This document shows positions 3,268 through 41,418 of a stretch of 64,000 bases of DNA, one piece after another. The notes beneath the pieces were generated by a model. It was not told the DNA's origin and searched no databases. It saw only the letters and a program-made list of their open reading frames with translations. The position numbers were made by a program, and so were the translations under genes. Origin of the DNA: Planctomycetota bacterium (GTDB taxonomy: Bacteria; Planctomycetota; SZUA-567; H5-PLA8); contig JAKLKQ010000001.1 in the NCBI GenBank assembly GCA_023150555.1, positions 1 to 64,000 of the forward strand, given 5' to 3'. Positions within the stretch are counted from its first letter, which is position 1. Each line of letters begins with the position of its first letter.

Positions 3268-3270
3268 AGT

Positions 3271-4050: not shown

Positions 4051-4073
4051 TTGCAGTCCTCCTGACTTCGAGG

Positions 4074-5345: not shown

Positions 5346-5346
5346 T

Positions 5347-5727: not shown

Positions 5728-5754
5728 GGTCGAACCTCCGTAGCCAGGCCTTTG

Positions 5755-9237: not shown

Positions 9238-9280
9238 GTCTCTGCCTCCGTCCGATTGCCAGGAAGTCTTTAGAACACGG

Positions 9281-10942: not shown

Positions 10943-11022
10943 GCGATGCTCCTCCGGGATACTAACCTCACGCTGGAACTCGGCATTCAATGCAATCGAC
11001 ACACAAGGTATGGCGTTCAGGT

Positions 11023-13737: not shown

Positions 13738-13816
13738 CGGAGAACTGTCGATCCTACCCGTGCCTCAACCGGGAATTCTAATTGTCGTCGACGGGAAGAA
13801 TAATTGTCGCTGGACA
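13738..13816 (-). repeat. 79-bp dispersed repeat, copy 1
   Basis: Matches 31901-31979 in inverted orientation at 77 of 79 positions with no gaps. Read on the minus strand it begins TGTCCAGCGACAATT and contains two CGACAATT motifs 19-20 bases apart, which looks like a transposon end. Its inner boundary abuts the truncated 5' end of the quinoprotein gene. Confidence 0.85.
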
Positions 13817-14171: not shown

Positions 14172-17100
14172 TCATTTCCTCACCAGTCTAACGGCGTCTG
14201 CGCTGGCCTGGCCGTTCTCGCTGGAGACCTCCACATAGGCGGCAGTGCCGGCATTGAAAGTCCAACTCCCCAACAAGACCCACTTACCCCCTAGTGTGGA
14301 GTCGCGTTGGTTGACCGTCACCGTGGCAACGCTGCCGACATGGGCAATCCGGTAGGGCACGGTCGTCGAGCGGTTGGCGTGGTACGTCCACCAAGCGTAG
14401 ACTTCATAGGTTCCAGCAGCGGTCACCGCCGGCGTCCAGCGGAATGTCCCGCCTAAGTCGGAGTAGAGCGACTCACCGGCGTACGGGTTGGCGCCCGCCG
14501 AGACACTCCACGTTCCCGTTCTGGATGTGTTGCCATCCTTGTTGTCCACCACGAGCGGCGCCATGATGGCAATGACATCGCCGGCGCTCAGGGTCCCAGC
14601 GTACAGACGGAGATCGTCCAACCGGCCACCGAAGAAGCGGGCCGGGTCTAGATCATTGCGGGCGCCCAGGAGGATATTCCCCGCGGGATTGAAGCTGCCA
14701 CCGCCCTTAGCGCTCGTCTTGCGCGCCACGCCGTCCACATAGATTGTCGACCCGGCGGAGTTCACCGCCAAGGCATAATGATGCCATTGCCCATCGGCCA
14801 GCGGCAAGGAGACATCGAGCGCTTCAACTTGCAAGGTGTCGTCGGCATCCATGAGGCACGTACGCAGGATCACGGGGCTCGTTCCCTGTGCACCTTCAAA
14901 CAGGTATACGTTGAGACTATTCGGTGTTCCAACCCCGCCATGGCTGAAGAGGTATTTGTAGGCAGCGCCTCCGTTACTGGGCACGTTGAACCAGAAAGCC
15001 AGGCTGAACGATCCGGATGGCGCGTAGTTGAAGTCGGCCAGCGCCACCCGGTCGTCCACCTCGTCAAACGCAAGCCCGCCATCAATCTTCCCTGCGGCCC
15101 AAGCAGGCCCGCCGCTGAGCGTCCCGTTTCGACCGTTGCCCGAGCTGTCCATGGCCACCGTCCCGCCAGACTCATCCAGCTTGAGATAGGCAGCCAGGGC
15201 GGCGCTTGCAGGCGAAGAGGTCACCGTCAGCGTTGCGTTGGCGCTCGTTACACTTCCGGCGGAATTGCTTACCACGACCGAGAAGAGCGCGCCATGATCT
15301 GCCGTCGTGGTCGCTGGCGTCGTGTACGAGGAATTTGTCGCTCCCGCGATAGCCGTCCCGTTCTTGCGCCACTGGTAGCTCAGCGGCGCAGTGCCCGTGG
15401 CCGTCACGTTGAACGTTGCGTTCTGGCCCGCCGTGACCGCCACGCTGGCAGGTTGCGTCGTGATCGCTGGCATGACCCTCACGGTCAAGGTTGCATTGCT
15501 ACTCGTAACACTGCCTGCGGAGTTGGAGACGACCACGCTAAAGAGCGCTCCGCTATCCGCAGCCGTCGTTACGGGCGTTGTGTAGCCTGCTGATGTCGCG
15601 TTGGCAATATTGACGCCGTTCTTGCGCCACTGGTAGCTCAGCGGCGCCGTACCCGTGGCTGTCACGTTGAATGTCGCGGCCTGGCCGGCCGTGACCGCAA
15701 CGCTGACCGGCTGCGATGTGATCGCCGGTGCGACTGCTGCCGAGTTTACCGTCAGCGTTGCGTTGGCGCTCGTTACACTTCCGGCAGAATTGCTTACTAC
15801 GACCGAGAAGAGCGCGCCGTGATCTGCCGTCGTGGTCGCTGGCGTCGTGTACGAGGAATTTGTCGCTCCCGAGATGGCCGTCCCGTTCTTGCGCCACTGG
15901 TAGCTCAGCGGCGCCGTACCCGTGGCCGTCACGTTGAACGTTGCGGCCTGGCCGGCCGTGACCGCAACGCTGGCAGGTTGCGTCGTGATCGCGGGTGCAA
16001 TCAATGCGGCATTGACGGAGACCGTCACGTCTCCTGTGACTGTCGCCGCGCCGTCGGAGACGCCAACTCGAAGCGTATAGATGCCGGCGGTGCCAAACGT
16101 CGCCGTGCTCACGCTGCTGGAAGCGGTCCCGTTCGGCGAGAAGATCACCGTCCCGGGTCCGCTCACCTTTGACCATGTGTAGGTCAGGGCCGCCGGGCCA
16201 CTGTCCGGATCGTTCGCCACGACGTTCACTGAGGTCGAGGATGGCAGCGTCACCGGATTGGGGCTCGCCCACGGCGCCGACTCGATAACGGGCGGACTGT
16301 TCGTGTCCGGAACCGTTACGGTCACGCTGCCCTGGCCGTTCTTACCACCCGCCGAGGCCGTGACCGTGTACGGCCCGCCCGCCGCGGCACCAGCGGTAAA
16401 CAGCCCCGCCGAGTTAATCGTTCCACCGCCGCTTGCGGCCCAGGTGAAGGCTGGCTGGGGCGAGAGGTTTGCGCCATATTGGTCTTTGGCCATTGCGGCA
16501 AACTGCTGCGTGCTTCCTGCGGTTACGCTCGCGCTCCCCGGCGTCAAAAGGATGGTCGTCAGCACAGGTGGATTCGCCGAATTGGTTGCTCCAAAGAATA
16601 CTGCGCTGGCCCGAGCCGTCTTGTTGATAGATGAAAGCCGGACTAGGACATGGCCCTTAAGATCCCACACCAGGTACTTCCCGCCGACGAAGCTCGCCAT
16701 GGCCCGGCTGTCGAGAACCATGGTCGGATCTTCTCCGTCCACGACTTCAACGCGTTGGCTTCTCGTATTGTCGCCGCCCCAGTCCAGGAAATACACGGCG
16801 ACCCTGTGGGTAAGGCCATCATGCAGTTTCAGATTAAGCAAGATATTGTCGCCGGTAGTCGAGGCTGCCCATCCGGAGGCTATGCGTGCCGGGTTAATGT
16901 CCCATGCATGCTGCAGTGCGCGCGCATCAGTTGACGGATCCGCCCACGTATAGCCTGCGATCTTATAGATGACGTAAGGATCGAAGTTGCTGGCGTAGTT
17001 GGGCAGCTTCTTGCTGTTGTTCACGATCCAATGGCCATCGGTTCCATAGCGGCCTTTCCAGTTACCCTGTGTCGTGCTGTCCTCTGTCACGAAGGTCGCC

Positions 17101-20100
17101 CAGCCTGCCTGGCGCTTCTGGTTACGGATCTCAAGATAGTCAAGCCGGGTAGGAAAAGTCCCTCCGCCGATGGTTACGCGCAGTTCTCCGTCGGCCACGG
17201 AAGCCGGCACGTTCCCCAACAGAGTTAGGGCGGGCGTAAACCCCTTGGGTGCGCGATCCAGGACCCACTGCCCTTGCACGGCTGCGCGGTCCTGATCGTA
17301 TGCAGCAACCGTACTGCCGATGCCCAAGCTGACATAGTAACTTCCATTGGGGAGACTTGTCTTCCATGTAGCCAATGCCTGGGAAGAGACGGCCGAGTCC
17401 ACCCGCGGATCGGTCTCGCGTTCGTAGGTTTTCGCATTGCCGGTGAGATTGATATCCCACCCGTATTTTCTGCCGGTATCGAACATCCCTCCGGCATCCA
17501 TCAGGTATCCGGGCGGCACCGCGCTGGTGGCTGCCTGGAAATTGACCCCTAGATAGATTACCTCCAGGGGAATCGTGGCGAGATTCGAGTCCAGGAACCC
17601 GTCGTTGGCTTTGAAGGTAAAGCTATCCAACCCCATATAGCCGGCCGACGGCGTGTAGATCAGATTGGGCGCGGTTCCAGAGAGGGTTCCGTGCGCTGGC
17701 GGGACCACGACCGAATAGGTCAGTGGCTCATCTCCTTCGTTCGTGACCTTGAGCTGGATTGCGCGTGGCGTGTTGCGCGTGACCACAAGCGGGACGTCCA
17801 GACCTTGAGCTACCGGAGCGGTTGCCTTGACCTCGATGTTTATAATTCCACTATCCGTAAAGGTCCCATCCGAAACCTTGAACGTAAAGCTGTCCATCCC
17901 CACATAGCCTGCGGCCGGGGTATAGATAAGGTCAGGTGCGGTTCCAGTGAGCGTCCCATGGGTAGACAGTACCGTCACGCTAAAGGTAACGGGTTTGCCG
18001 GAATCCACCCTGGCCTGCAGTGTTATGGGCTTCGGTTTGCCGGGCGTAACGATCACCTTCTGTCCAATCGCCACCGGCTTCGGGTTGTGGCCCTGGAAGA
18101 AGGTCACATAGCCCTTCACGTCGCCCACAACCAGATCCGTCAGACCATCGCCATCCAGGTCGCCTACGCCCAATTGGGCCTCGTTTACGGGTTGGAGCGA
18201 GGGTGCGCTATGGTAGTCGCCAGTTGAGTTTCGATAGTCTTTGTCCGTTCCCACCTTAGCCGGGTCGCCGACAACAATAGGCGTGCCACCTGCATTCAGC
18301 CTGGCAGGGCTGCCGAAAACTGGGCACTTGGACGAACCCACATTCGGGGAGAACCAGACCGTGCCGTCCTGCATGCCGACGAGCAGGTCTTTCCTGCCGC
18401 TTCCGCTCAAGTCCACGGCCACCACGCTCTTGCGCGAACCCACCGGGCTTGCGTTGGAAAGTGTCAGGGTCGGAAAGATACCTAGGGCAGTCGATTGAGG
18501 ATAAAAAAAGCTTCCTTTACACTCATAGGCTCTTGCGGGGATACCGGCGCTACTGGTAAAGGTCAGGATTGTGCCTGGATCCGGTCCATGGTTCATGCGC
18601 GCGCCCAGGAAAACATTCACCAACCCACTTGGCGTGCTCTGCGCGATGTATCTTGCCGTAAACGTGGACCAAACATTGTTATCGCCTGAGATCAGATCGG
18701 GGAACCCGTCGCCATTGATATCCGTAATAAACGGCATGGCGCTCGGCCTTCCGCCGCCGTTATAACCGGTTTTGGGAAGGGTGCTTGAGAGAAGGCACCA
18801 GATCTTTTCGGCAAAGGCGGGAGCTTCGTTTGTGCCCACGTTAAGACAGACCGTGACCCCCCACCGCCGCTGGAATCGTAGCAGCTCCTGATCGCCCCAG
18901 GTCCCCATGACCAGATCCTTCAGGCCATCTGCGTTCCAGTCCACGAACCGCGGCGCGGCACAGGCGGCCTCCCCCCCGCTACAGCTGCATCCTCTTGGGT
19001 CTTGGTTCCGGATCTCCACGCCATTGAGGTAGCTTAGATATTGGAAGCCACTGAAACGGGGCGAGCCCTTTGATCCCTTGTTGAGAAAAAGGGCTATCCG
19101 CCCGTCGGCTTGGCCTACCAATAGATCGGTCAAGCCGTCGTTGTTCCAATCGGCCAGCTCAGGAGCGGCCATGGAAAAAATTTCATACTGACTATTCGCA
19201 AGGTTCCCCTCGCGATTGGCATAGTCGTATCGTCCATTTCGTTCCGATCTCCAGACGCGCAGTGGGGCTGCGCCGTCCATGATGGGTACGCCCGCCTTCA
19301 ACGCCGGAGGAGCGCCAGGCGCGGAGGTACCGACCACATTGATTGCGAGGGTTCCTATTGCACTGTCGATCATCCCGTCGTTCACCTTCCACCTGAAACT
19401 ATCGGCGCCAAGGTAGCCTGGCATCGGGGTGTAGTTCAGTCGCAGGAATGCCGCGCTGGTTACGTCGCCAGCTTTCAGGATGGTAGTGCCATTCTTGAGC
19501 TCGCCTTTGGCTGGCGCTTCGACAAGAATAAAATTCACCGGTTGCGTGACGTCCACATGGGTATAATGCAAGTAGTTGGACACCAGGGTTGTGCTGTCCT
19601 TCAGGACGGTCAGGCTATAGGTTGGATGGGTGACTATCGGCGGGCTGTTGCGATTAACCGTGATGGTGCAGGTAGCTGTTCCAGAACTGGCCACCCCATC
19701 AGACACTTTCCATGTAAAGGCGTCCGTACCCGCGAAACCGGTGTTGGGTGTATACTTCCAATTTGATGGAGAGCTCGTACTGCTGGCGCCGGCATTCAAC
19801 ACCGCCCCATTGTACGTCACCGTGCCATTTACCGGCGGCGTCACCATCGTGAAGGTCTTTACCTGACCACTGTCGGGATCGGAATAACTCAAGTTAAAGA
19901 ATTGATATGTTCCTTCCAACACGCTTATTGCCTGATTATTCGCCACCGGTACGGTGTTTTTCTTGACCGTTATGTTGCAGGTGGCTGTGTTGGAAGTATA
20001 AGTACCATCCGAAACCGTCCATGTAAAAGTATCAATCCCTGAAAAGCCGGCGTTGGGCGTATAGTACCAACCGTTGTCCATGGCAACACCTGTCGGGATG

Positions 20101-20345
20101 GATCTGAATTCGTACGGTACGGTAAAATGGTAGTATTCCAACTTTCCCTTGGTCGGCGCCGTCAACAGTCTGAAGGTATAAGTCCCGGAGGTATCCGGAT
20201 CCGAATAAGCCAGATTGATGTAGATTCTCTGAACCCCTTCACTGATGGTAGTACTCTGGTTGTTGGCGACCGGCGCGGTCGCTGCTAAGGCGGCTCCTGG
20301 CGCAAGCAACAGGCACAGCAGCGCGACTTTTTGAATCGAAAGCAT
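14172..20345 (-). CDS. Giant secreted multidomain surface protein (cadherin-like, FG-GAP, Ig-like, LamG, golvesin-like domains)
   Basis: The ATG at 20345 follows AAAGGAGGAGC and opens a clear signal peptide (MLSIQKVALLCLLLAPGAALA); the ORF-track start at 20423 lies inside the upstream gene. In order: three cadherin-like/Big repeats (~22-338), five FG-GAP/VCBS calcium-binding propeller repeats (~390-740; e.g. DINGDGFPDLISG, DLDGDGLTDLVVG), two more cadherin-like repeats (~758-928), two malectin/CBM-like stretches (~932-1252), a Big2-type Ig domain, a PKD-like domain, three almost identical Ig-like repeats (~1450-1710), a LamG/concanavalin-like domain (~1713-1925) and a C-terminal golvesin-like carbohydrate-binding domain. 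There is no LPxTG or obvious sorting tail. The role is likely adhesion or polysaccharide binding. It is 43 bases downstream of a membrane-tethered sigma factor. Confidence 0.9.
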   Translation of the reverse strand: MLSIQKVALLCLLLAPGAALAATAPVANNQSTTISEGVQRIYINLAYSDPDTSGTYTFRLLTAPTKGKLEYYHFTVPYEFRSIPTGVAMDNGWYYTPNAGFSGIDTFTWTVSDGTYTSNTATCNITVKKNTVPVANNQAISVLEGTYQFFNLSYSDPDSGQVKTFTMVTPPVNGTVTYNGAVLNAGASSTSSPSNWKYTPNTGFAGTDAFTWKVSDGVASSGTATCTITVNRNSPPIVTHPTYSLTVLKDSTTLVSNYLHYTHVDVTQPVNFILVEAPAKGELKNGTTILKAGDVTSAAFLRLNYTPMPGYLGADSFRWKVNDGMIDSAIGTLAINVVGTSAPGAPPALKAGVPIMDGAAPLRVWRSERNGRYDYANREGNLANSQYEIFSMAAPELADWNNDGLTDLLVGQADGRIALFLNKGSKGSPRFSGFQYLSYLNGVEIRNQDPRGCSCSGGEAACAAPRFVDWNADGLKDLVMGTWGDQELLRFQRRWGVTVCLNVGTNEAPAFAEKIWCLLSSTLPKTGYNGGGRPSAMPFITDINGDGFPDLISGDNNVWSTFTARYIAQSTPSGLVNVFLGARMNHGPDPGTILTFTSSAGIPARAYECKGSFFYPQSTALGIFPTLTLSNASPVGSRKSVVAVDLSGSGRKDLLVGMQDGTVWFSPNVGSSKCPVFGSPARLNAGGTPIVVGDPAKVGTDKDYRNSTGDYHSAPSLQPVNEAQLGVGDLDGDGLTDLVVGDVKGYVTFFQGHNPKPVAIGQKVIVTPGKPKPITLQARVDSGKPVTFSVTVLSTHGTLTGTAPDLIYTPAAGYVGMDSFTFKVSDGTFTDSGIINIEVKATAPVAQGLDVPLVVTRNTPRAIQLKVTNEGDEPLTYSVVVPPAHGTLSGTAPNLIYTPSAGYMGLDSFTFKANDGFLDSNLATIPLEVIYLGVNFQAATSAVPPGYLMDAGGMFDTGRKYGWDINLTGNAKTYERETDPRVDSAVSSQALATWKTSLPNGSYYVSLGIGSTVAAYDQDRAAVQGQWVLDRAPKGFTPALTLLGNVPASVADGELRVTIGGGTFPTRLDYLEIRNQKRQAGWATFVTEDSTTQGNWKGRYGTDGHWIVNNSKKLPNYASNFDPYVIYKIAGYTWADPSTDARALQHAWDINPARIASGWAASTTGDNILLNLKLHDGLTHRVAVYFLDWGGDNTRSQRVEVVDGEDPTMVLDSRAMASFVGGKYLVWDLKGHVLVRLSSINKTARASAVFFGATNSANPPVLTTILLTPGSASVTAGSTQQFAAMAKDQYGANLSPQPAFTWAASGGGTINSAGLFTAGAAAGGPYTVTASAGGKNGQGSVTVTVPDTNSPPVIESAPWASPNPVTLPSSTSVNVVANDPDSGPAALTYTWSKVSGPGTVIFSPNGTASSSVSTATFGTAGIYTLRVGVSDGAATVTGDVTVSVNAALIAPAITTQPASVAVTAGQAATFNVTATGTAPLSYQWRKNGTAISGATNSSYTTPATTTADHGALFSVVVSNSAGSVTSANATLTVNSAAVAPAITSQPVSVAVTAGQAATFNVTATGTAPLSYQWRKNGVNIANATSAGYTTPVTTAADSGALFSVVVSNSAGSVTSSNATLTVRVMPAITTQPASVAVTAGQNATFNVTATGTAPLSYQWRKNGTAIAGATNSSYTTPATTTADHGALFSVVVSNSAGSVTSANATLTVTSSPASAALAAYLKLDESGGTVAMDSSGNGRNGTLSGGPAWAAGKIDGGLAFDEVDDRVALADFNYAPSGSFSLAFWFNVPSNGGAAYKYLFSHGGVGTPNSLNVYLFEGAQGTSPVILRTCLMDADDTLQVEALDVSLPLADGQWHHYALAVNSAGSTIYVDGVARKTSAKGGGSFNPAGNILLGARNDLDPARFFGGRLDDLRLYAGTLSAGDVIAIMAPLVVDNKDGNTSRTGTWSVSAGANPYAGESLYSDLGGTFRWTPAVTAAGTYEVYAWWTYHANRSTTVPYRIAHVGSVATVTVNQRDSTLGGKWVLLGSWTFNAGTAAYVEVSSENGQASADAVRLVRK
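15223..15995 (-). repeat. Three near-identical tandem Ig-domain repeats at DNA level
   Basis: Three copies of an ~88-codon unit lie within the surface-protein gene. The first and third share long identical blocks: ACCGTCAGCGTTGCGTTGGC begins at 15223 and again at 15748, with only scattered changes. The low divergence suggests recent duplication or gene conversion and makes copy-number change by recombination likely. Confidence 0.85.
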
Positions 20346-20388
20346 GGATGCTCCTCCTTTGTAATTCGAGGCGACAGCGCTTTTTCGA

Positions 20389-22002
20389 CTACTTGCCCGC
20401 ATCGCCTTCAAGCGGCCGTGCAAGGGTTCTGGGTGCTATTGCTTGCTGCTTGTTCAAGCGAACGCGCTTGAGGTTGAATGCTTTTGCGCATCGATCGATG
20501 TCACCGAAAGGCTCCGGAATGTCTTCCTTCCTTATTTCGCGTACCTCAATTTCCGTTACGATGCAGCCTGTTGCGCCAATCGTAAGAAATGGCAGTATCT
20601 CTAGCCCTTCATCAAATTGATCAATGACGACACCCATCCGCTTGGCTCGCGATCCGCTCCAATATGCCGTGGATGACCATGTGCCTTCTCCTACCAGGTA
20701 GTTAACTGTTTCGATTGGACCGCCATTCTTATGAACAAAGAATTCGCCGCGAAAGGAAGTTATTGCTTCAGGCGTCTGCCGTACTCCCCACCCGGCGTTC
20801 AAGTTCAGGACATTGCCTGGCTTCAGGGGAAGCTGATAAGCGTGAATGACCACCTCCCAGCTAAGACCTCTGGGAACAGCCAACGGGAGCCGCATGCAAG
20901 ACCTTGAGCCGGACTGGGCAGCCAACATGCCGGCGGGGCGGCCGTCCTCTGCCGGCATCCACTTCCACGCGGAACCGTATTCCTCGATTCCGGGAAGCGG
21001 CCCCTCCGAGAAGCGCCATCGTCGATGGATCGACCCCACAGCACCTTTCGCCTGTTCAATCGGTTGAGTTTCTTGAACCTCCACTGGCGTTTGGGCTCTT
21101 GGCTCGTCTTGGGAGTCCGACTTCGTCAGCCAGACGGCACCTGCCCCGGCTGCGACGGCCACGACAGCCGCAAGAATCAGGTTCTTGCTGGCGCCAGGAG
21201 CAACCCTGCGGCTAAAGTTCTGGGATACACGCCTGCTGATTTCCTGGGCAGAGTCCGCCGCGTCGCCGATGCGCTCCAATATCTTCTCGCACATTCCAGC
21301 AGGCACCGGCTGCCCGCTTAGCAACGCTTCATTCAGCATCTCAGGCGCAAGCCCAGGTGCTGCCGCAGCGAAACCCGCACCGGCCAAGGCCGAACGAAGA
21401 TGATCGAGCGCCTCGCGAAGACGCAGGCTCACCGTGGTCTGCGGAATCTCCAACAAGTCCGTAATTTCACTTTGGCTCAGATTGGCGCCGAAATACAACG
21501 TGACGATCTCTCGCGTGCGCACGGGCAATCGGCCGACTTCCCGGCGCAGTGCTTCCCTCAGCTCGAGGTGCTCCATTTTGTCGACCTTCTCATCTCCCGG
21601 CAGGCGGGCGTGCTTCAGGCTATCGTCATCCAAAATCATTTCGTGCATCCTTTTTCGCTTTAATACGCGAAGGCTTTCGTTGGCAACGGTTCGCAGTATC
21701 CAGGCACGCGGGTTTTCATCGCGACATGATTTGGCATGGCGCCATATGCGGATCATCGCGCTCTGCACGGCTTCTTCAGCCATGCCGGCATTCCGAGTGA
21801 AGTGCAGGGCAAGGTTGTAGGCAGGTCCCGAGACGCGCTCATAAAGCTCCCTGAACGCGGAATGGTCGCGGTCCTCTGCTATACGCCTCAGGATCTCAAG
21901 TTCACCTTCTGGCCCTATTGCGCTCACACGCACCTTGCCTCTCCGGTACTGGGAATTCACCGTGGATGCCTTTGTTGATTCCTCCTCCTTCACCAGGCCC
22001 AT
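20389..22002 (-). CDS. ECF-type sigma factor fused to a transmembrane segment and extracytoplasmic domain
   Basis: The N-terminal half is a sigma-70 family factor. Region 2 has EEAVQSAMIRIWRHAKSCRDE, and region 4 has a helix-turn-helix SQSEITDLLEIPQTTVSLRLREAL. After a linker comes one hydrophobic segment (NLILAAVVAVAAGAGAVWL) and then ~240 residues that would lie outside the cytoplasm, with a beta-sandwich-like pattern (SWEVVIHAYQLPLKPGNVLNL). The downstream surface protein is 43 bases away, so they are probably co-transcribed. The start is uncertain: the ORF opens at 22110, an ATG is at 22002, and a GTG further in with a GGAGAGG site is also possible. The same architecture recurs at 35994-37457. 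Confidence 0.85.
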   Translation of the reverse strand: MGLVKEEESTKASTVNSQYRRGKVRVSAIGPEGELEILRRIAEDRDHSAFRELYERVSGPAYNLALHFTRNAGMAEEAVQSAMIRIWRHAKSCRDENPRAWILRTVANESLRVLKRKRMHEMILDDDSLKHARLPGDEKVDKMEHLELREALRREVGRLPVRTREIVTLYFGANLSQSEITDLLEIPQTTVSLRLREALDHLRSALAGAGFAAAAPGLAPEMLNEALLSGQPVPAGMCEKILERIGDAADSAQEISRRVSQNFSRRVAPGASKNLILAAVVAVAAGAGAVWLTKSDSQDEPRAQTPVEVQETQPIEQAKGAVGSIHRRWRFSEGPLPGIEEYGSAWKWMPAEDGRPAGMLAAQSGSRSCMRLPLAVPRGLSWEVVIHAYQLPLKPGNVLNLNAGWGVRQTPEAITSFRGEFFVHKNGGPIETVNYLVGEGTWSSTAYWSGSRAKRMGVVIDQFDEGLEILPFLTIGATGCIVTEIEVREIRKEDIPEPFGDIDRCAKAFNLKRVRLNKQQAIAPRTLARPLEGDAGK

Positions 22003-22401
22003 GGTATAATCCCCAGCAGTTATAGCCAATTGACCCCACCATGAATCCGCCTTAGCAAGAAAATGGATGGAATCTTGGGGATTCCTCCTGCTCATTGGGT
22101 GTCGAGCCATCCAGCTAGAGATGCAGATAGTCTATCGTGCCATTCGTAGAAGCTTGGCGCCGCCCTCATATCAATTGATCTGAAAACCACGGGAAGAGAG
22201 GTACTGAAACAGCCACTAAATTGCCCCGGGTCAGCCGGAAAGCATCGCCCGCCCCTAACAATAGCTGACGAGGCAATGGTTTGGCAGAAGTGCCAGTACT
22301 TCATCAGCGAAGAGGCTTGTCCAGGAAATGGCGAGACGTAAAGTGAGCGGCAATGGGGCTCTTGAATCGGCACATCGTCAGTCAACCAGGAAATTCTGGG
22401 T
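22003..22401. other. Intergenic region upstream of the tethered sigma factor
   Basis: About 400 bases between the sigma-factor start and the acyltransferase fragment. The short ORFs here are shadows and I see no promoter, hairpin or RNA gene I would defend. If the sigma factor starts further upstream, the left 108 bases belong to it. Confidence 0.4.
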
Positions 22402-22844: not shown

Positions 22845-23369
22845 ATGGCCGTGGCTGCCGACATCCATCCTGCAAGAGAATCTGCCTTGGTACAGCGGGC
22901 TGCTCTTTCCGACCTCGACGACGCCGCGCTGCTAGTGGCCGTCGCCACTAAGCGCAACCGCGCCGCGTACCAGGAACTCTACGTTCGTTACAAGCGCAAG
23001 GCCTATAGCCAGGCCCGTTACCTGGCCGGCAGCAACACGTCCGCCGACGAGGCTTTCCAGGAGGGCATGCTGCGCGTCTGGATCTACGCCAAGTCCTTCA
23101 AGCCCGACGGCAACGCCCGCGCCTGGATCCTGCGCACCGTGGCCCGCGAGGCCCTCAAGAAGGCCAAGGCCGCCCGAAAGGACGATCGCGCCAAGAGCTT
23201 GGACGAATCCATACAGGCCCCGGTGCTGGACGCGCCGGCCGGCCACAACCCCGAACGCGAAGAACTCTTCGCCGGCCTTCGCGATGGGCTGGAACGCCTC
23301 GCCCCCGGCCTCCGCCGCCTGGTGCTGCTGTACTATGTCGCGGGCCTGACGCAGCAGGAGAAGCCCTGA
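22845..23369 (+). CDS. ECF sigma factor lacking region 4 (truncated)
   Basis: Residues 25-105 are a clear sigma-70 region 2 (YQELYVRYKRKAYSQARYL, DEAFQEGMLRVWIYAKSF, WILRTVAREAL). The protein then reaches LRRLVLLYYVAGLTQQE, the first helix of region 4, and stops two codons later (KP). The DNA-binding half of region 4 is missing, so promoter -35 recognition should be lost. The sequence at the break (CAGGAG) can serve as the ribosome site of the next small ORF, consistent with a deletion that fused the gene to that leader. It is either a pseudogene or an atypical partial sigma. Confidence 0.7.
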   Translation: MAVAADIHPARESALVQRAALSDLDDAALLVAVATKRNRAAYQELYVRYKRKAYSQARYLAGSNTSADEAFQEGMLRVWIYAKSFKPDGNARAWILRTVAREALKKAKAARKDDRAKSLDESIQAPVLDAPAGHNPEREELFAGLRDGLERLAPGLRRLVLLYYVAGLTQQEKP

Positions 23370-26546: not shown

Positions 26547-29500
26547 ATGGCGAAGAGCGGTTGGAAATTCTGGATCGACGTCGGCGGTACCTTCACCGAC
26601 GTGGTCGCCTGCCGGCCCGACGGTACACTCGTCACCGACAAGTTGCTCAGCAGCGGGCGTCTGAAAGGACGCGCCGGCGCGGGCAGCGGCCCGAGCCTGC
26701 TGGTGGACGAACGCCGACGCGGCGAGGCGCAGGGCCTGTACGTCGGATACACGATGGTCCTCCTGAACGCGCAGGGCGGCGAAGCCGCGCGCGCAACGGT
26801 CGCGCGTTTTGACGGGGACTCCGGGCGCCTCGAGCTCGATGCCGATGCCGCGCCAATCAAGCCCGGCGCCGATTACGAACTCTTCAGCGGCGAGCCCGCG
26901 CCCGTAGTCGCGATTCGCCGCTTGCTCGGCAAGAGACTAAGCGAAGCGATCTCCGGCATCGAAGTGCGCTTGGGCACCACCCGCGGCACCAACGCGCTGC
27001 TGGAACGCAAGGGCGCGCCGACGGCGTGGGTCACCACGCGGGGCTTCGGCGACCTGCTGCGCATCGGCAGCCAGGAACGCCCCGAACTCTTCCGCCTCGA
27101 CATCCGCAAGCCCGAGGCACTCTTTCGGGAAGTCGTGGAACTCGACGAACGCATCGCCGCCGACGGAATCGTTCTCGAGCCCCTCGATCCCAAGCGCGTG
27201 CATGCGGCGTTGGCGGGCTTGAAGGCGAAAGGCATCGCATCGCTGGCCGTCTGCCTGCTCAATAGTTACCGCAACGACGCGCACGAACGCATCGTCGCCG
27301 GCGTCGCGAAGGACCTCGGCTTCGACGACGCGCACCTATCGATCTCCTCTGCCGTTTCGCCGACGATCAAGATGGTCTCGCGCGGGGACACCACCGTCCT
27401 CGACGCGTACCTGACGCCGGTCGTGCGCGACTACGTCGGCAGCATCCAGCGCGCGCTGCAGGGCGCCAGCCTGCGCCTGCTGACCAGCGCGGGCGGGCTG
27501 GTCGGCGCGGAGTTCTTCACCGGACGGGACAGCATCCTCAGCGGACCGGCCGGCGGCATGGTGGGCTTCTCGCGCGCGGCGCAGGCCGCTGGATTCCCGA
27601 AGGCGATCGGCTTCGACATGGGCGGGACAAGCACCGACGTCTCGCGCTTCGAAGGCCAGTACGAATACCAGTTCGAGACGCGCAAGGCCGGCGTGCGCGT
27701 CGTCGCGCCGATGTTGGCCGTCGAGACCGTCGCGGCAGGCGGCGGGAGCATCTGCGCCTTCGACGGACAGAAACTGGTCGTCGGCCCGGAAAGCGCCGGC
27801 GCCGATCCCGGACCCGCGTGCTACGGGCGCGGCGGCCCGCTGGCCGTCACCGACCTGAACGTGTACCTGGGCAAGATTCCCGCCGAGACCTTTCCGTTCC
27901 CACTCGATATTGCTGCCATCGAACGCCGCCTGAACGAAGTGGCGGAGCGCGTCGAGGCCGCCACCGGCAAGCGCATGGCCCCGGCGGAACTCGCGGAAGG
28001 TTTCACGCGCATCGCTAACGCCAACATGGCGGCACCCATCAAGCAGATTTCCATCGCGCGCGGCTACGACGTGCGCGAGTACACCCTGGTCTGCTTCGGC
28101 GGCGCCGGCGGGCAGCACGCCTGCGCGATCGCGCGCAGCCTGGGGATGCCAAAGGTCCTGCTGCATCCGTATGCGGGCGTGCTGAGCGCATTCGGGATGG
28201 GCCTGGCCGACGTCAAGAAGTTCGGGGTGCGCTCGGTGCTTGCGGCGTGCTCGGATGAGACACTTACCCGCGTGCGCGTCGAGTTCAAGGCAATGGAAAC
28301 AGAGTTGCGCGCTCAGCTTTGCGAGGAAGGCATCGCGGAAGCCAACATTCAGCCGCCTCGCCGCATGCTGGAGATGCGCTATGCGGGACAGAGCGCCGCG
28401 ATTCTCGTCGACGAAGAGCCCGGCGCGGACTATGCGGCGAGCTTCGAGCGCCGCCACGAGGCGCTGTTTGGGCACGCGCAGCACGGCCGCGCGGTCGAGG
28501 TCGTCACGGCGCGCATGGAACTGGGCGGCACGCTGGACAAGGTCCCATCGCCTTGGCAGGAGCCCGTCGCGCGAACGGTGCAGCCGTCGAGGACGAAGAA
28601 GGTGCTCTTCGGTGGCCAGGAGCACGCGGCGGGCCTCTTTGTGCGGGAGGAACTCCGCGCCGGCGATTCGTTCGATGGCCTAGCCATTGTCGTCGAGCGC
28701 ATCGGCACCGTCGTCGTCGATCCGGGTTGGCGCGCCGAGATGACCGGACGCGGCGACCTGGTGCTGACCGACCTCGAAGGCCGCGCGAGACAGACGTCCT
28801 CCGGCTCCACCGCCGAAGCCGATCCGGTGCAACTCGAGATCTTCAACAACCACTTCGCCAGCATCGCCGAGCAGATGGGCGTGACGCTGCAGAAGACGTC
28901 GCTCAGCACCAACGTCAAGGAACGCCTCGATTTCTCGTGCGCGATCTTCACCGCGAAGGGCGAACTGGTCGCCAACGCGCCGCATGTTCCAGTGCATCTG
29001 GGCGCGATGGGTGCGTGCGTGCAGTGCCTGCTGGAAGACGTGCCGGACCTGAAGCCCGGCGACGTTCTGGTGACCAACGATCCGTTCCGCGGCGGCTCGC
29101 ACCTGCCCGACGTCACCGTCGTAACGCCGGTGCACGACGCCAAGGGGCGGCTGCTCTTCTTCACCGGCAGCCGCGCGCACCACGCCGAGATGGGCGGCAA
29201 GCGCCCGGGCTCGCTGGTGCCCGATGCGACGAGCCTCGCCGACGAGGGCGTGCTGATCCGGCATTTCAAGGTGCTCGACGGCGGAGCATCCTGCGAAGCC
29301 GGCCTGCGGGAGATCCTGGCCGGCGGACCGCACCCGTCCCGCGCGCCCGACGAGAACCTCGCCGACATCCGCGCGCAGATCGCCGCCAACCGCACCGGGG
29401 CGCGCGAACTTCAGGCCATGCTGGAACGTTACGGTTCCGGCGTGGTGCTCGCGTACATGAACCACATCCGCGCCGCCGCGGAACGCAAGATGCGTGCGGC

Positions 29501-30356
29501 GCTGGCGCGGCTGCCCGACGGCGAACGCCGCTTCGAGGACCGCATGGACGACGGCACGCCGATCGTCGTGACGCTGATCAAGCGCGGCGAGACGGCGGTG
29601 CTCGACTTCGCAGGCACCGGCCCGGTCAGCCGCGGCAACCTGAACGCGAACCCGGCCATCGTGCGCAGCGCGGTGCTGTACTGCCTGCGCTGCCTGATCG
29701 ACGAGGACATCCCGCTCAACGGCGGCGTGCTGGCGCCGGTGACGATTCGCATTCCGGAGGGCATCCTCAATCCGCCCGCGCATCCGGACCCCGCGCGCTG
29801 CCCGGCGGTGATCGGCGGCAACGTCGAGACCAGCCAGCGCGTCGTGGACGTGGTGCTGGGCGCGCTGGGCCTCTGCGCGGCCAGCCAGGGAACGATGAAC
29901 AACTTCGCCTTCGGCGACGCGAGTTTCGGGTACTACGAGACGATCTGCGGCGGCGCGGGCGCGGGGCCGGGCTTCTGCGGCGCCGATGCCGTGCACACAC
30001 ACATGACCAACACGCGCCTGACCGATCCGGAAGTTCTCGAGGCGCGTTACCCGGTGCGGCTGCAGCGGTTCGCGATCCGGAAAGGCTCGGGCGGGGCGGG
30101 GAAGCACCGAGGCGGCGACGGCATCGTGCGCGAGGTCGAGTTCCTCAAGCCCGCCGAGGCCGCGATCCTCAGCAACCGCCGAACGACTGCGCCTTACGGC
30201 CTGGCCGGCGGCAAGCCGGGCGCTTCGGGGAGGAATCTTTTGAAGCGTGTGGGTTCTGAAAAGGCCGAGGCGTTGCCGTGGCTCGCGCAGGTCCAGATAG
30301 CTCCCGGCGACGCCATCATCATCGAGACGCCCGGCGGCGGCGGCTATGGAAGCTGA
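26547..30356 (+). CDS. 5-oxoprolinase (ATP-hydrolysing), HyuA-HyuB fusion / hydantoinase family
   Basis: Cytoplasmic enzyme that would open 5-oxoproline (or a hydantoin) with ATP. The N-terminal ~690 residues are a HyuA-type unit with the ATPase-fold motif [12 protein letters not shown] and [13 protein letters not shown]. After a short linker the HyuB-type unit begins ([22 protein letters not shown]) and runs to the terminal GGGGYG. At 1269 aa it is the usual length of the fused eukaryote-like and bacterial enzyme. GC content is high like the right-hand core region, unlike its broken neighbours. 5-oxoprolinase and N-methylhydantoinase activities cannot be told apart here. Confidence 0.92.
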
Positions 30357-31900: not shown

Positions 31901-31979
31901 TGTCCAGCGACAATTGTTCTTCCCGTCGACGACAATTAGAATTCCTGGTTGAGGCACGGGTAGGATCGACAGTTCTCCG
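31901..31979 (+). repeat. 79-bp dispersed repeat, copy 2
   Basis: Starts TGTCCAGCGACAATT and matches 13738-13816 (opposite strand) at 77 of 79 bases. As at the first copy, the far end abuts a truncated gene, here the Toprim fragment. It begins about 50 bases after the nucleotidyltransferase-domain gene. Confidence 0.85.
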
Positions 31980-35993: not shown

Positions 35994-37457
35994 TCATCGA
36001 TTCTCGTAATCGATATAGGGCTGGGGCTTGGGATTGGTGCGTACCAGTTCCCGGACCCGGGCCCGCCAGGCGTCCTGCTCATCCTCCTTGAGCGAACGGA
36101 GGACAATGCGGGAGATCAGCAGGGCCCGCCCATTCATCCTCACGCGCAGGGGCTCCGGGGGCAGCGGCTTGTAATCGCAAAGGCGCACGACCTGGTCGTT
36201 GACCAGCAACACCAGAAAGTCGTCGACGAAGATCCATGTGAAGTCCGCGGGCTTGTTTCGGACCAGGGGCTCGGGTAATCGGCGGTCGAAATAGATTCGC
36301 GAAAGGAGCCGGTGGCCTTGCGCGGTCCATTCGGCGCCGATGGTGAAGTCCTTGCCGGGTGCGGCAATAGCTTTGATGGCGTAAGCCTGTTGTCCGGGCA
36401 CTTCAGGCAAAGTCCATTCGGAGACTCTGTTCTGGGCAACCCGCCACCCCAGGGGATCGCTCTCCAATGTCAGCGCGCGCTCCTGAGCCTCGATACCGTT
36501 CAGGACTCGGTCGGCCGCTTTCCAGTCGAAGTAGATGGCACCGTCCAGCCTTGGGGACGTGCCGGCTGGTTGGGCGAGTCGATTCGTATCGGGAGCACTT
36601 GCGTGTTCAGGTGCCTGGGACGGTTCTTGTGACCGCGCCGGCCACAGGAACACGGTGCCTAGGCCGGCGGCGAGGACGAGTGCCGTGCCGGCCAATACGG
36701 CCGGAAGGGCCGCGATTCCGTGAGCGGTTGGCGCTTGGGTTCTTGAGGAACGCCGCGAGGCGCCAGCGTCTGCCTTGGCCGGCTTCACCCATGAGCGGTT
36801 GCCGACTAGCGAATCGACCAATTGCGGGGACGGTTGTTTGCCGCTGAAAATCGTGCCCGCCAAGTTTTCCGGAGTGCATAACGGCACTGCCGTCGCGAGG
36901 CCCACCGTCCCCAGGTGCGCCTTCAGCTTCTGGAGCCCATCCTCCAACCGGTACGAGATGGCCTGTTGAGTGATGCCCAGCTCCTGTCCGATCTCCTTCT
37001 GGCTCATTCCTGCACCGTAGTACATCACCATCACCAGTCGGTGGATTTGCGGTAGGGTATGCAGACCTTCCTGCAACGCATGGCACGCTTCGGCAATCGC
37101 GGCCTTGTCCAGGGGCGATTCGGAGTCGGGCGCGGGCACGTTGTGGATTTCCTCCAGGCTGGGATCGGCTTGCGGATTGCGCTTCAGTTGACGCAGGCTT
37201 TCGCGAGCCGTGATGCGCAGCAGCCAGTTCCGCACGCTTCCGGTGCTGCGGTAGGACGAAGCATACCGCCACGCCCGTATGCACGCTTCTTGCACGGCAT
37301 CATCGGCCAGTTCGCGATTCCGCGTAATCTGCCAGGCCAGGCTGAAGGCCTTGGCATGATGTCGGACGACGAGTTGCGCGAACGCCTCCTGGTCCTGAGC
37401 ACACACGACCGCTTCAATCAGTACGTTGTCAGAGACGTCGTGGGGCTGGCCATCCAT
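35994..37457 (-). CDS. ECF-type sigma factor with transmembrane segment and extracytoplasmic domain
   Basis: Residues ~10-90 are sigma region 2 (AFSLAWQITRNRELADDAVQEACIRAWRY). Residues ~120-175 are region 4 with the helix-turn-helix SQKEIGQELGITQQAISYRLEDGL. After a linker comes one membrane helix (LPAVLAGTALVLAAGLGTVFLW, ~residue 255) and ~200 residues predicted outside, with beta-rich pattern (GAIYFDWKAADRV, FTWIFVDDFLVLLVNDQVVRL). The architecture matches the sigma factor at 20389-22002 although the outer domains differ. Start ATG 37457 has AAGGG upstream. A tethered sigma would need proteolytic release to act on promoters. Confidence 0.87.
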   Translation of the reverse strand: MDGQPHDVSDNVLIEAVVCAQDQEAFAQLVVRHHAKAFSLAWQITRNRELADDAVQEACIRAWRYASSYRSTGSVRNWLLRITARESLRQLKRNPQADPSLEEIHNVPAPDSESPLDKAAIAEACHALQEGLHTLPQIHRLVMVMYYGAGMSQKEIGQELGITQQAISYRLEDGLQKLKAHLGTVGLATAVPLCTPENLAGTIFSGKQPSPQLVDSLVGNRSWVKPAKADAGASRRSSRTQAPTAHGIAALPAVLAGTALVLAAGLGTVFLWPARSQEPSQAPEHASAPDTNRLAQPAGTSPRLDGAIYFDWKAADRVLNGIEAQERALTLESDPLGWRVAQNRVSEWTLPEVPGQQAYAIKAIAAPGKDFTIGAEWTAQGHRLLSRIYFDRRLPEPLVRNKPADFTWIFVDDFLVLLVNDQVVRLCDYKPLPPEPLRVRMNGRALLISRIVLRSLKEDEQDAWRARVRELVRTNPKPQPYIDYENR

Positions 37458-37575: not shown

Positions 37576-38085
37576 TTACATGCTTTGCGGCAAGGAGGCA
37601 AGGACACCGCGCGCCTTATCGCTTAACCAGATGGAGTTTCGATCCAAACCCGCCTCGGCAGCGGCCCAATGCGTGGTCAACGGGTTCTTTGGGATGCCGC
37701 CGAAGACTTTTTTATCAGCGCCTGCGGCGGCGCGTGAGGCGCGGATATGCGTGCCGTCGATGCACCACTGGTTCCAGTCGATGTGGCCTTCACGGTCGAG
37801 GCGAATCTGCAACGCGTCCAGAATACGCTGGAAGACCCCGGCCTTACGCCAACGCGAGAAGGTGTTGTACATGGTTTTCCAAGGGCCAAAGCGCTCCGGC
37901 AGATCGCGCCATGGCGCACCAGTATGCAGCAGCCAGAACATGGCATTTAGCATGGTGCGCGGATCCCTGGACTTACGACCCGTTCGGGGTCGCGGCAGCA
38001 ATGGCTCAACCAAAGCCCACTGTTCGTCTGAAAGTTCGTGCCGTTTCATGCGATTACCTCCAGATGCCTGGAGGTGTTTCGTCAT
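37576..38085 (-). pseudogene. IS5-family transposase, first ORF, truncated
   Basis: Typical IS5 N-terminal domain: HELSDEQWALVEPLLPRP, MLNAMFWLLHTGAPWRDLPERFGPWKTMYNTFSRWRKAGVF, and WCIDGTHIRASRAAAGA, which holds the first DDE Asp. In this IS group the second half is reached by a frameshift near the GADKK codons. Here the second frame survives for only ~20 codons. The last ~20 codons of the ORF as listed lie outside the element. No active transposase can be made. Confidence 0.82.
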
Positions 38086-38119
38086 TTCAGCGGCAAAAAA
38101 TGAGTTTCGGGACAGAACC
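37625..38119 (-). mobile_element. IS5-family (IS427-like) insertion sequence remnant, 3' part deleted
   Basis: One end is intact: GGTTCTGTCCCGAAACTCA reads inward from 38119. The first transposase ORF follows, then the start of the second in another frame (DHALGRCRGGFGSKLHLV), after which homology stops near 37625. The rest of the second ORF and the other inverted repeat are missing. It lies just upstream of the second tethered sigma factor, within its probable promoter region. Confidence 0.75.
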
Positions 38120-38287
38120 TAGTGGCCGAGCACGCTTGATTTGATGGGTAGGCGCCGAGTGATTTTGGCCGTGATCGAGGCGCGCGAAGTGGAGGCGTAT
38201 CAGGAAGATTCGCCAAACGTAGCGCAACGAAGAGCACGGCCAAAAGCGCCGGCGAAACCCCCAAGATCAAGCGTGTCCGACCACTAG
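38119..38287. repeat. Inverted-repeat element (~169 bp, MITE-like)
   Basis: CTAGTGGCCGAGCACGCTTG at the left and the complementary CTAGTGGTCGGACACGCTTG at the right form ~25-bp imperfect terminal inverted repeats, each ending in CTAG. No ORF is inside. The IS5 remnant abuts its left end. Bases 38288-38604 beyond it hold no gene I can support. Confidence 0.6.
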
Positions 38288-38604
38288 ACTCGGACTTCAA
38301 GGATCGGTTGATCGGTGCTGCTGATCAGCGGACGGGTTAATGCAGTTATCCGTGAAGGCAAGCACTTTTCTGCGGACCTTCGACGGCGCCGAATTGAAGT
38401 CGTTGTATCCCTCCACTAGCTAGCCGCGAAATACGGTGGGGGGCCTAACTGTGTGGTGCCACCAGATTTTCCTTGTGGCGGGTTTGTGGCGGTTAGGTGA
38501 ATTTCCAGAGATGCAAGGACAAGGGCCTTGATTCTCAGACAATTGTAATGTATTGTACGGACTCAACTTGAAGCGGCCGTGGATAGCATTGTTTCCATTT
38601 CAGA

Positions 38605-38624
38605 GAATCCCACCCTCTCCGCCA
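38605..38624 (+). other. Remnant of a tRNA-Ser 3' end (probable attachment site)
   Basis: GAATCCCACCCTCTCCGCCA reproduces the T-arm 3' strand, acceptor strand and CCA of a typical bacterial tRNA-Ser, followed by CTTTTT. The rest of the tRNA is not present upstream. Tyrosine-recombinase elements that integrate into tRNA genes leave exactly this kind of partial copy at their far end. Left of it lie pseudogenes and mobile remnants; right of it lie compact core genes. Confidence 0.6.
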
Positions 38625-38741
38625 CTTTTTCGCCTTCGTAACTGCCATCTGCGCCGGATCTTGCAACCTTCGCCGTAACATGTGCGCGCCGCGCGCTGTC
38701 CATTCCTCCGAGTGGCTATTGCCCTTCGGAGGAACGCCGCC

Positions 38742-39797
38742 ATGTCCCGACCGCCCGTCATGCTCGGCCTGCTGGTGCTCGCGATCCTGGTCTCCAGTTT
38801 CGTCGCCGGCGGCATGACCGCTCGCAGCGAGGACAACGGCCCCGCGCCCACCGGCCCCGCCGAGCACACCGTCGTCGCCGAAGGGCAGACCTACGAGATC
38901 GTCGGCGGCAAGGTCTATCGCAGAACCCCCGACGGCAAGCGGGAATACGTCGACACGCTCTACGAGCCCGGCTACCAGGCGAAGAACTACCGCGTGCAGG
39001 ACGGCAAGGTCTTCCGCCTCGCCGAGGGCAAGTCCTACCCCGTGAAGCGGCAGTTCCACGAGGGCTTCGAGGGCGTGGCGAGGCTCACCGAACTGGTCGG
39101 CGAGCGGCGCGGCTGGACTTCCTTCACGCTGCAATCCCCGCTGGCGTCGAACGTTACGGACTACGTGGCGCTGCGGAAGAGGATCCTCGCCGGCACCGGC
39201 ACCTTCCTGGACAACCGCGTCGAACCCACCGCCGCGCGCGCCCACAGCGGGCGCGGCGCGCTGAAGTGCGTTGCCGCCGCCAAGCCCAAGGACATGGTCT
39301 GCACCAAGGCCTCGCTCGACACGGAGCTGCTGCACTTCGTGCGCGGCGACGACGTGTACTACCGGGCGTGGTACTTCATCGAAGGCCCCACGCGGCCCTT
39401 CACGCTGATGGACCTGGAGAGTTCGTGGCTCAAGTCGTACCCCGGCATCCGCATCCGAATCGACGAAGCCGGGCATCTGGACGCCGAGCTGAAGTGGCTC
39501 GATAAACCCGCCTACCGCCAGCCTTTCGGCAAGGAGACGGCCTTCCCCGTAGGGCGCTGGGTGCGCGTCGACGCGCACTACAAACTCAGCGAGAAGGACG
39601 ACGGCGTGGTGGAGCTGTGGCAGGACGGCAGGAAGCTCGTCTCGCAGAAGGGCCGCACGCTGCCCCTGAGCGACGCCATCTACAACAACTACGAAGTGGG
39701 CATCTCGGCGCACGCCTTCGGGACCGAGGCCGCGACGCTGTACGTCGACGACGTGACCATCTCGGACAAGCCGATTCCCGAGCCGAAGCAGCCATAG
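38742..39797 (+). CDS. Secreted protein with concanavalin/LamG-like (polysaccharide lyase-like) domain
   Basis: The ATG at 38742 follows GGAGGAACG and gives a 351-aa product with an N-terminal signal or anchor segment (PPVMLGLLVLAILVSSFVAGG). The ORF-track start at 38682 adds 20 unlikely residues. Residues ~40-110 contain short YxxxxGKVYR repeats (GGKVYRRTPDGKREYVD, DGKVFRLAEGKSYPVK). Residues ~115-345 look like a jelly-roll lectin/lyase fold (ALKCVAA, YYRAWYFIEG, GRWVRVDAHYKLS, LWQDGRKL, ATLYVDDVTIS). It resembles PL7/PL14-like or LamG proteins; catalysis is uncertain. Confidence 0.8.
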   Translation: MSRPPVMLGLLVLAILVSSFVAGGMTARSEDNGPAPTGPAEHTVVAEGQTYEIVGGKVYRRTPDGKREYVDTLYEPGYQAKNYRVQDGKVFRLAEGKSYPVKRQFHEGFEGVARLTELVGERRGWTSFTLQSPLASNVTDYVALRKRILAGTGTFLDNRVEPTAARAHSGRGALKCVAAAKPKDMVCTKASLDTELLHFVRGDDVYYRAWYFIEGPTRPFTLMDLESSWLKSYPGIRIRIDEAGHLDAELKWLDKPAYRQPFGKETAFPVGRWVRVDAHYKLSEKDDGVVELWQDGRKLVSQKGRTLPLSDAIYNNYEVGISAHAFGTEAATLYVDDVTISDKPIPEPKQP

Positions 39798-39877: not shown

Positions 39878-39964
39878 TGGTGCCCAGGAGAGGAGTTGAA
39901 CCTCCACGGGGTTGCCCCCACCAGCACCTGAAGCTGGCGCGTCTGCCAGTTCCGCCACCTGGGC
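39878..39964 (-). tRNA. tRNA-Leu (anticodon CAG)
   Basis: On the minus strand the acceptor GCCCAGG pairs with CCTGGGC, followed by discriminator A and an encoded CCA. The anticodon arm is CCAGC-TTCAGGT-GCTGG with anticodon CAG. A long variable arm (GTGGGGGCAACCCCGT) and the T-arm GGAGGTTCAACTCC complete a class II leucine tRNA. Transcription runs into the terminator at 39828. Confidence 0.96.
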
Positions 39965-40200
39965 TTGGACGGCGATTCGGACAGCAGAGGCATCCTACCG
40001 AACCGCGCCCGGGACTCAAGGTCAACTCCGCGTTTCCCGGCCTCCGCCCGCATCCCGCCCGCCGCCACGCCTGACACGGCCCGGTGCCCTTAAACCACTG
40101 GTGGCTCGGGGGTTGGCCTATAGAATGAGCTTCGATTCCGCACCTTCGCCCGGCCGCCTGCTCCTTTATGGTGTGCCGAAACCTCCGGCAGGGAGACGCC

Positions 40201-41418
40201 ATGGGCTTGAACTTCACCGACCTGGCCAAGAAGGACCCGATCAAGGTGATCGGCCTGATCTCGGGGACCAGCTGCGACGGCGTCGACGCCGCGCTGTGTT
40301 CGATCTCCGGCGACGAGACGGCGACCTTCAAGGTCGAGGTGCTCGCGTTCGAGACCGAGTCCTACAGCCCGCAGCTGCAGAAAAAGCTGTTGGAGGTCTG
40401 CGACACGAAGGCCTGCAACCCCGACGAACTGTGCCGCACCAACTTCCGCGTCGGCGAGACCTTCGCACGAGCGGCGGCGCAGATCGTCGAGAAGGCGAAA
40501 CTGAAGAACAGCGACGTGGATCTGGTCGGCACCCACGGCCAGACCATCGCACACCTTCCGCCGCGCACCGACATCGGCAGCAAGGCCACGGGCATGGCCG
40601 TGAAGTACGGTTCGACGCTGCAGATCGGCGAGCCCGCGGTGATCGCGGAGCGCATCGGCGCGCCGGTGGTCTCTAACTTCCGCACCCGCGACATGGCCGC
40701 CGGCGGGCAGGGCGCGCCGCTGGTGCCGTACGTCGACTACCTGCTGCTGGCACACCCGCAGAAGACCCGCGCTGTGATCAACATCGGCGGCATCTCGAAC
40801 ATCACCTACCTGCCGAAGGGCTGCAAGCCCGAGCAGGTGATGGCCTTCGACTCCGGCCCCGGAAACATGATTATCGACGCGATGATCCAGCTGATGACGC
40901 AGGGCAAGGAGCGCTACGACAAAAACGGCGAACGCGCCGCGCAGGGACACGTCGACGGCTACATCCTCAGCAAGTTGCTGCAGCACCCGTTCCTCGCCAT
41001 GGAGCCGCCCAAGTCGACGGGGCGCGAGGAGTTCGGCCAGGAGTACGCCAAGCACATCTACCAGTGGGGCATCACCCGCAGCGTCGTTCCCACCGACACG
41101 CTGCGCACCGTCACCGACTTCACCGCCATCACTCTGGCCGAAGCCTACAAGAAGCACCTGCTGAAACTCGGCAAGGTCGACGAGGTCATCGTCTCCGGCG
41201 GCGGCGCCCTGAACAAGACGCTGATGACACGCCTGAAGAAGGAGTTCGGCGAGGCGCCCATTGGGATCTCCGACGACTACGGCCTGCCCATGAAGGGGAA
41301 GGAAGCCATCGCCTTCGCGGTCCTGGCCCTGGAGACCATCCGTGGGCGGCCCGGCAACCTCGCCGCCGCCACCGGCGCCGCCGGCCCGCGCATCCTGGGC
41401 CAGATCACTCCGGCATGA
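40201..41418 (+). CDS. anmK: Anhydro-N-acetylmuramic acid kinase
   Basis: Cytoplasmic kinase of peptidoglycan recycling that opens and phosphorylates 1,6-anhydro-MurNAc to MurNAc-6-phosphate. The ATP-binding motif GLISGTSCDGVDAAL, GTHGQTIAH, RDMAAGGQGAPLVP, INIGGISN and SGGGALN are all present. Start at ATG 40201 with AGGGAG upstream gives 405 aa, slightly longer than E. coli AnmK. It heads a plus-strand pair with the threonine aldolase 28 bases downstream. Confidence 0.95.
   Translation: MGLNFTDLAKKDPIKVIGLISGTSCDGVDAALCSISGDETATFKVEVLAFETESYSPQLQKKLLEVCDTKACNPDELCRTNFRVGETFARAAAQIVEKAKLKNSDVDLVGTHGQTIAHLPPRTDIGSKATGMAVKYGSTLQIGEPAVIAERIGAPVVSNFRTRDMAAGGQGAPLVPYVDYLLLAHPQKTRAVINIGGISNITYLPKGCKPEQVMAFDSGPGNMIIDAMIQLMTQGKERYDKNGERAAQGHVDGYILSKLLQHPFLAMEPPKSTGREEFGQEYAKHIYQWGITRSVVPTDTLRTVTDFTAITLAEAYKKHLLKLGKVDEVIVSGGGALNKTLMTRLKKEFGEAPIGISDDYGLPMKGKEAIAFAVLALETIRGRPGNLAAATGAAGPRILGQITPA

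Follow-up and report, generated by a model that had tools for sequence, protein, structure and literature searches.

The 64-kb stretch analysed here (hereafter the window) spans positions 1-64000 of contig C95 from a planctomycete genome of 6.62 Mb in 183 contigs. On its plus strand, at 38605-38624, it carries the 20-mer GAATCCCACCCTCTCCGCCA, which corresponds to the 3' end of a tRNA-Ser gene from the T-loop to the CCA. We asked if this short sequence is the scar of a mobile element that inserted into a tRNA-Ser gene and, if so, which tRNA gene was targeted, how far the element reaches, and which of the neighbouring genes might have travelled with it.

A tRNA-Ser 3' end without its tRNA

The initial annotation described a 20-base tRNA-Ser 3' end with no tRNA body, and this is what we found: the 20-mer is exact at its position, and neither ARAGORN nor Rfam (the latter also at E<=1) finds a tRNA body at 38.6 kb. 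It is the sole match in the window, even when up to 3 mismatches are allowed, and shuffled sequence gave none. Across its own genome the exact 20-mer occurs three times, once in the window and once at the 3' end of each of two tRNA-Ser genes, tRNA-Ser(GCT) (C11:32653-32744, minus strand) and tRNA-Ser(CGA) (C123:53230-53321, plus strand), whose last 20 nt are each identical to it at 20/20 positions. The 3' end of a further gene, tRNA-Ser(GGA) on C33, is one base off, and the reversed 20-mer, used as a control, has no match in the genome. Thus the tRNA-Ser with this 3' end, on whose existence the annotation hinged, is present as two intact genes, each with an adjoining integrase.

Sequences of this kind are well known from genomic islands in tRNA genes. 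According to the standard model described for Islander (PMC4383910), a copy of the tRNA 3' end carried by the element restores the tRNA, and the old 3' fragment is pushed to the far end. The resulting signature is an island enclosed by a tRNA gene and the corresponding fragment, with an integrase gene within the interval and the fragment lying downstream of the tRNA in the same orientation and 2-200 kb away (PMC4383910). With regard to the other Islander criteria, the 20-mer is a non-internal tDNA-end fragment that includes the CCA and lacks a tRNA body; as for the rule against overlap with a conserved coding domain, the start assigned to the gene at 38742 is to the right of it; and intact cognate tRNA genes are present in the genome, namely tRNA-Ser(CGA) on C123 and tRNA-Ser(GCT) on C11.

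Could the 20-mer instead match by chance, or be a short piece of tRNA that was copied in some different way? It is only 20 nt long and the rest of the tRNA is absent, but shuffling predicts no such match, the position coincides with a shift in GC content, and parallel orphans with a nearly identical core occur in four relatives (both described below). We therefore consider this explanation extremely improbable, and the 20-mer almost certainly is the genuine scar of a mobile element inserted in a tRNA-Ser gene, positioned where foreign-looking DNA meets native DNA.

Composition and synteny at the boundary

Within the window, GC content is 0.603 to the left of the 20-mer and 0.659 to the right. 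Of all single GC change points across the window, the best falls at 38650-38680, 26-80 bp from the 20-mer, with a gain of 101.7-101.9 depending on the grid and of 100.7 at the 20-mer itself, compared to a 99% level of 29.5 for the maxima of block-shuffled sequence. Because the bootstrap interval of the change point is wide (-4.65 to +1.18 kb), the closeness of the two positions exceeds the resolution of the method. Measured against the genome's other contigs, tetranucleotide distance is high over 1-28 kb (z 3.4-7.6), normal at 28-32 kb, where a hydantoinase gene lies, moderate at 32-40 kb, and normal, with z near 0, past 40 kb. Both the GC and the k-mer shift anticipated at 38.6 kb are thus present, the GC gain lying far above its null, and the anomalous composition of the island side is what Islander treats as a supporting, non-defining criterion.

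The first gene on the chromosomal side (38742-39797, plus strand) is polysaccharide-lyase-like. It lies between the 20-mer and a tRNA-Leu(CAG) gene (39878-39964, minus strand), and among six genomes of the same family it has a clear orthologue only in G003, 77% identical and at a different place. From tRNA-Leu(CAG) and the adjacent AnmK gene (40168-41418, plus strand) rightward, the window is colinear with G005, with about half of 17.4 kb matched at the DNA level (listed intervals summed), and syntenic in blocks with G001, G003 and G006. Left of tRNA-Leu, all four of these relatives differ. The higher-GC core genes claimed for the right side are thus borne out by a family-conserved block from tRNA-Leu/AnmK onward, and no synteny crosses the boundary in any of the four. 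A relative with an empty site was not found; a search of the genome collection returned only G003 (JABTUM01, isolate H5_PLA8) as a near relative.

The conserved synteny starts at tRNA-Leu, 1.25 kb to the right of the 20-mer, rather than at the 20-mer itself. This raises the alternative that the boundary was made by the 3' end of tRNA-Leu(CAG) at 39878, the tRNA-Ser piece being incidental: the synteny of all four relatives stops at this gene, whose 3' side is turned toward the variable sequence. Against this, searching the window with up to 5 mismatches gave no second tRNA-Leu 3' end, on which ground we rejected this origin; no integrase match lies beside tRNA-Leu in the relatives; and the GC change point favours 38.6 kb (gain 101.7 vs 92.2 at tRNA-Leu). 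Taken together, we regard a tRNA-Leu origin as quite improbable. As a separate observation, the variable 3' side of tRNA-Leu(CAG) in the four relatives (39878-39964; L022-L025) may represent a second hotspot, at which neither an integrase nor a 3'-end copy was seen.

tRNA-Ser genes as integration sites in the family

We searched the six relatives for the tRNA-Ser end, which returned both intact genes and bodyless copies. The bodyless ends are located at G003:C5:163543, G006:C3:30109, G005:C108:6061, and, in G002, at C13:743, C200:7115 and C198:16621, and those of all four genomes have TCCCWCCCTCTCCGCCA in common. On G003:C5, two cores in the same orientation, 6.6 kb apart, bracket an integrase whose end is 94 bp away from one core, and this unit has the appearance of a complete element with direct repeats at its ends. 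On G006:C3, integrases at the contig start are followed by 30 kb of DNA with a GC content of 0.546, then the core, then DNA with a GC content of 0.652. A GC shift accompanies a bodyless core in two of the four relatives that carry one, G003 and G006, while the orphan cores of G002 and G005 have no clear shift. In G003, the 3' ends of tRNA-Ser(GCT) and tRNA-Ser(CGA) both carry near-identical integrases (98%), and in G006 contig C1 terminates within tRNA-Ser(CGA) and contig C2 within tRNA-Ser(GCT), these anticodons being read from partial sequence by comparison. On G002:C13, a bodyless core is followed by an integrase of the type found on C123, which suggests a tandem array.

Across several genera of one family, tRNA-Ser(CGA) and tRNA-Ser(GCT) are thus repeatedly used as integration sites at their 3' ends, sometimes apparently in tandem. 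The present case shares with the elements at G003:C5, G006:C3 and G002:C98/C13 the core TCCCWCCCTCTCCGCCA, tyrosine integrases and, at two of them, the GC shift; the family's elements differ in that at least three integrase types are involved (the C123/G002, C11 and G003 types). By tblastn, none of the island-side genes of the window was matched in the G003:C5 and G006:C3 islands.

These bodyless cores are the strongest support for reading the 20-mer as an attR. Together with the identity of the tRNA, the integrases, and the break in GC and synteny, they bear out the annotation's proposal of a far attachment site, and we conclude that the 20-mer is very probably the distal attachment site of a tyrosine-integrase element in the 3' end of tRNA-Ser(CGA) or tRNA-Ser(GCT). 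Under this model, the element would have arrived with a tRNA 3'-end copy, and a crossover within the segment from T-loop to CCA would have restored the tRNA at the integrase-proximal end while moving the original 3' fragment to the opposite end, the piece still seen at 38605-38624. DNA to the right of the 20-mer would then be ancestral chromosome, and DNA to the left would be the element, or several such elements accumulated together with other insertions. What we infer is the targeted tRNA-Ser, the leftward extent of the element and the agency of the integrases that adjoin the tRNA genes.

The well-supported edge of a tDNA genomic island described here is a known and ordinary kind of feature, and the family-wide hotspot is the most useful addition. 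Among the papers searched, none combines planctomycete, genomic island, tRNA-Ser and integrase. With this scar, an island in an uncultured planctomycete gains a base-exact edge, and the mobility of neighbouring genes, including an operon resembling nitrite oxidoreductase (NXR), becomes testable.

Two further repeats were noticed in G002. On C223 (L051), a 14-nt second copy, CACCCTCTCCGCCA, lies 111 nt past the tRNA-Ser(CGA) core, and CTGTCCGAA repeats at this locus and in the left arm of the C13 orphan (L042); the two loci are perhaps the two ends of one element.

Candidate partner tRNA-Ser genes

Since the left edge of the window is the end of its contig and two tRNA-Ser genes qualify, there are two candidates for the partner of the 20-mer. 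Immediately downstream of tRNA-Ser(CGA) on C123 is a 484-aa tyrosine integrase (L006:17398-18852), and a second, convergent integrase is cut by the contig end 2.6 kb past the tRNA. Immediately downstream of tRNA-Ser(GCT) on C11 is a 466-aa tyrosine integrase (L007:9179-10579), 35% identical to its C123 counterpart, and beyond it about 32 kb of poorly conserved, low-GC DNA (mean 0.60) runs up to the contig start. The genome has 19 Phage_integrase matches, none of them on C95 over its whole length, and among the integrase loci scanned for neighbouring tRNAs, only those on C123 and C11 adjoin tRNA-Ser. Beside the C11 integrase, a protein with HEPN and nucleotidyltransferase domains (L007 8186-9154) is possible toxin-antitoxin-like cargo.

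An intact tRNA-Ser and an integrase, which the annotation placed to the left of the window, were thus found on both C123 and C11, but neither contig is joined to C95. The 64-kb part of C95 examined here contains no tRNA-Ser, and tRNA, integrase and fragment are not on one assembled piece. No 15-mers are common to the C95 start and either the C123 end or the C11 start, the genome contains no repeats common to the ends of C123 and C95, and no reading frame visible at C95:1 continues the truncated second integrase of C123. Joining the end of either candidate to the start of C95 would be compatible in geometry with a fragment downstream of the tRNA in the same orientation, the contigs themselves being unlinked. 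Compared to Islander islands (PMC4383910), which have a tRNA restored at one end and a same-orientation 3' fragment at the other, the present case is also alike in its tRNA-adjacent tyrosine integrase, its core from T-stem to 3' end and its tandem arrays; it differs in that tRNA and fragment lie on separate contigs and the 38.6 kb contain no integrase.

Three other routes to the partner were tried and rejected. C11 does not close on itself, as its 32 kb downstream contain no second core (the search left out 2 kb of C11). Synteny in relatives does not assign the partner, since the gsp cluster, the tRNA-Ser neighbours and the AnmK block are arranged differently in each genus. Finally, a weak pair of candidate arm-type repeats, TTGTGGCGG, lies 11 bp apart in the element-side arm (38473-38492, plus strand), with a GTGCAGA triplet at C123 and no exact pair at C11; 15% of 250-nt windows contain such a repeat, so these cannot be used to name the partner. 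In our judgement, tRNA-Ser(CGA) on C123 has about an even chance of being the partner and tRNA-Ser(GCT) on C11 a somewhat less than even one, with the small remainder falling to a partner that has been lost.

Content and extent of the island side

The island side (1-38604) is a mosaic of lower GC content and atypical tetranucleotide usage, its left end being the contig end, and it is mostly missing from the family relatives. By hand sums, less than about 2% of these 38.6 kb is matched in G001, G002 and G005, about 16% in G003 and about 25% in G006, chiefly in the NXR-like cluster, the hydantoinase gene and a repeated IS-like piece. The last kb holds a remnant of an IS4/5-type (DUF4096) transposase with repeated DNA (37576-38330, minus strand), similar copies of which occur at other places in the genome, with over 20 in G006. 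On the checks made, the description of this side as decayed and mobile-rich corresponds to that one remnant; no Phage_integrase match lies anywhere on C95. A hydantoinase A/B gene (26547-30356, plus strand) forms a patch of core-like GC content that looks native and has a 74% nucleotide match in G006.

The NXR-like cluster (1187-11026, minus strand) comprises moaA, an unknown gene, a NarJ-like delta subunit, beta, alpha and a cytochrome c/EB_dh subunit. Its alpha subunit matches the solved nitrite oxidoreductase subunit A of Kuenenia (structure 7b04) over its full length with 1712 bits, compared to about 107 for NarG. The cluster is also present in G003 and G006, in identical gene order, with a GC content (0.58-0.61) below that of their core blocks and away from the tRNA-Ser loci found there. 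Alpha is 90% identical between the congeners G003 and G006 and 83% identical between these and the window's genome, a divergence that matches genus membership, as expected from vertical descent.

These observations bear on how far the element extends. The scar could be real and the element short, or later broken up, with most of 1-38.6 kb being older accessory chromosome, a proposal that concerns extent only, is compatible with the scar, and would place the NXR-like operon and the hydantoinase gene in the older chromosome. The core-like composition and G006 match of the hydantoinase patch (26.5-30.4 kb) speak for it, as do the divergence and location of the NXR-like clusters; on the other hand, the 38.6 kb hold no second core that could close a short element, and composition is atypical across most of 1-28 kb. 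We consider a short or broken element a sizeable minority possibility. The annotation's placement of the NXR-like operon on, or next to, an island stands insofar as the operon falls on the scar's island side, but its corollary, that the operon is on acquired DNA, is weakly supported, the divergence of alpha fitting genus membership. In our view it is unlikely that this operon genuinely belongs, together with the multidomain sigma factors, to the cargo of an integrative element in tRNA-Ser; if it does, site-specific islands can carry genes for nitrite/nitrate respiration of the Kuenenia NxrA type from one planctomycete to another.

Several other features of the island side deserve mention. Three sigma-70-like ORFs are found at 20389-22110, 22845-23369 and 35994-37457, two of them, with total lengths of 573 and 487 aa, being extended by long additional C-terminal regions. 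A 79-nt inverted pair (13738-13816 and 31901-31979), 97% complementary and 18 kb apart, has no further copy in the genome and might represent the ends of a large transposon-like unit. Lastly, 14172-20423 encodes a 2083-aa protein with bacterial Ig, cadherin-like, laminin-G and golvesin C-terminal domains, and within its gene a 254-nt sequence is repeated threefold at 15217-15995.
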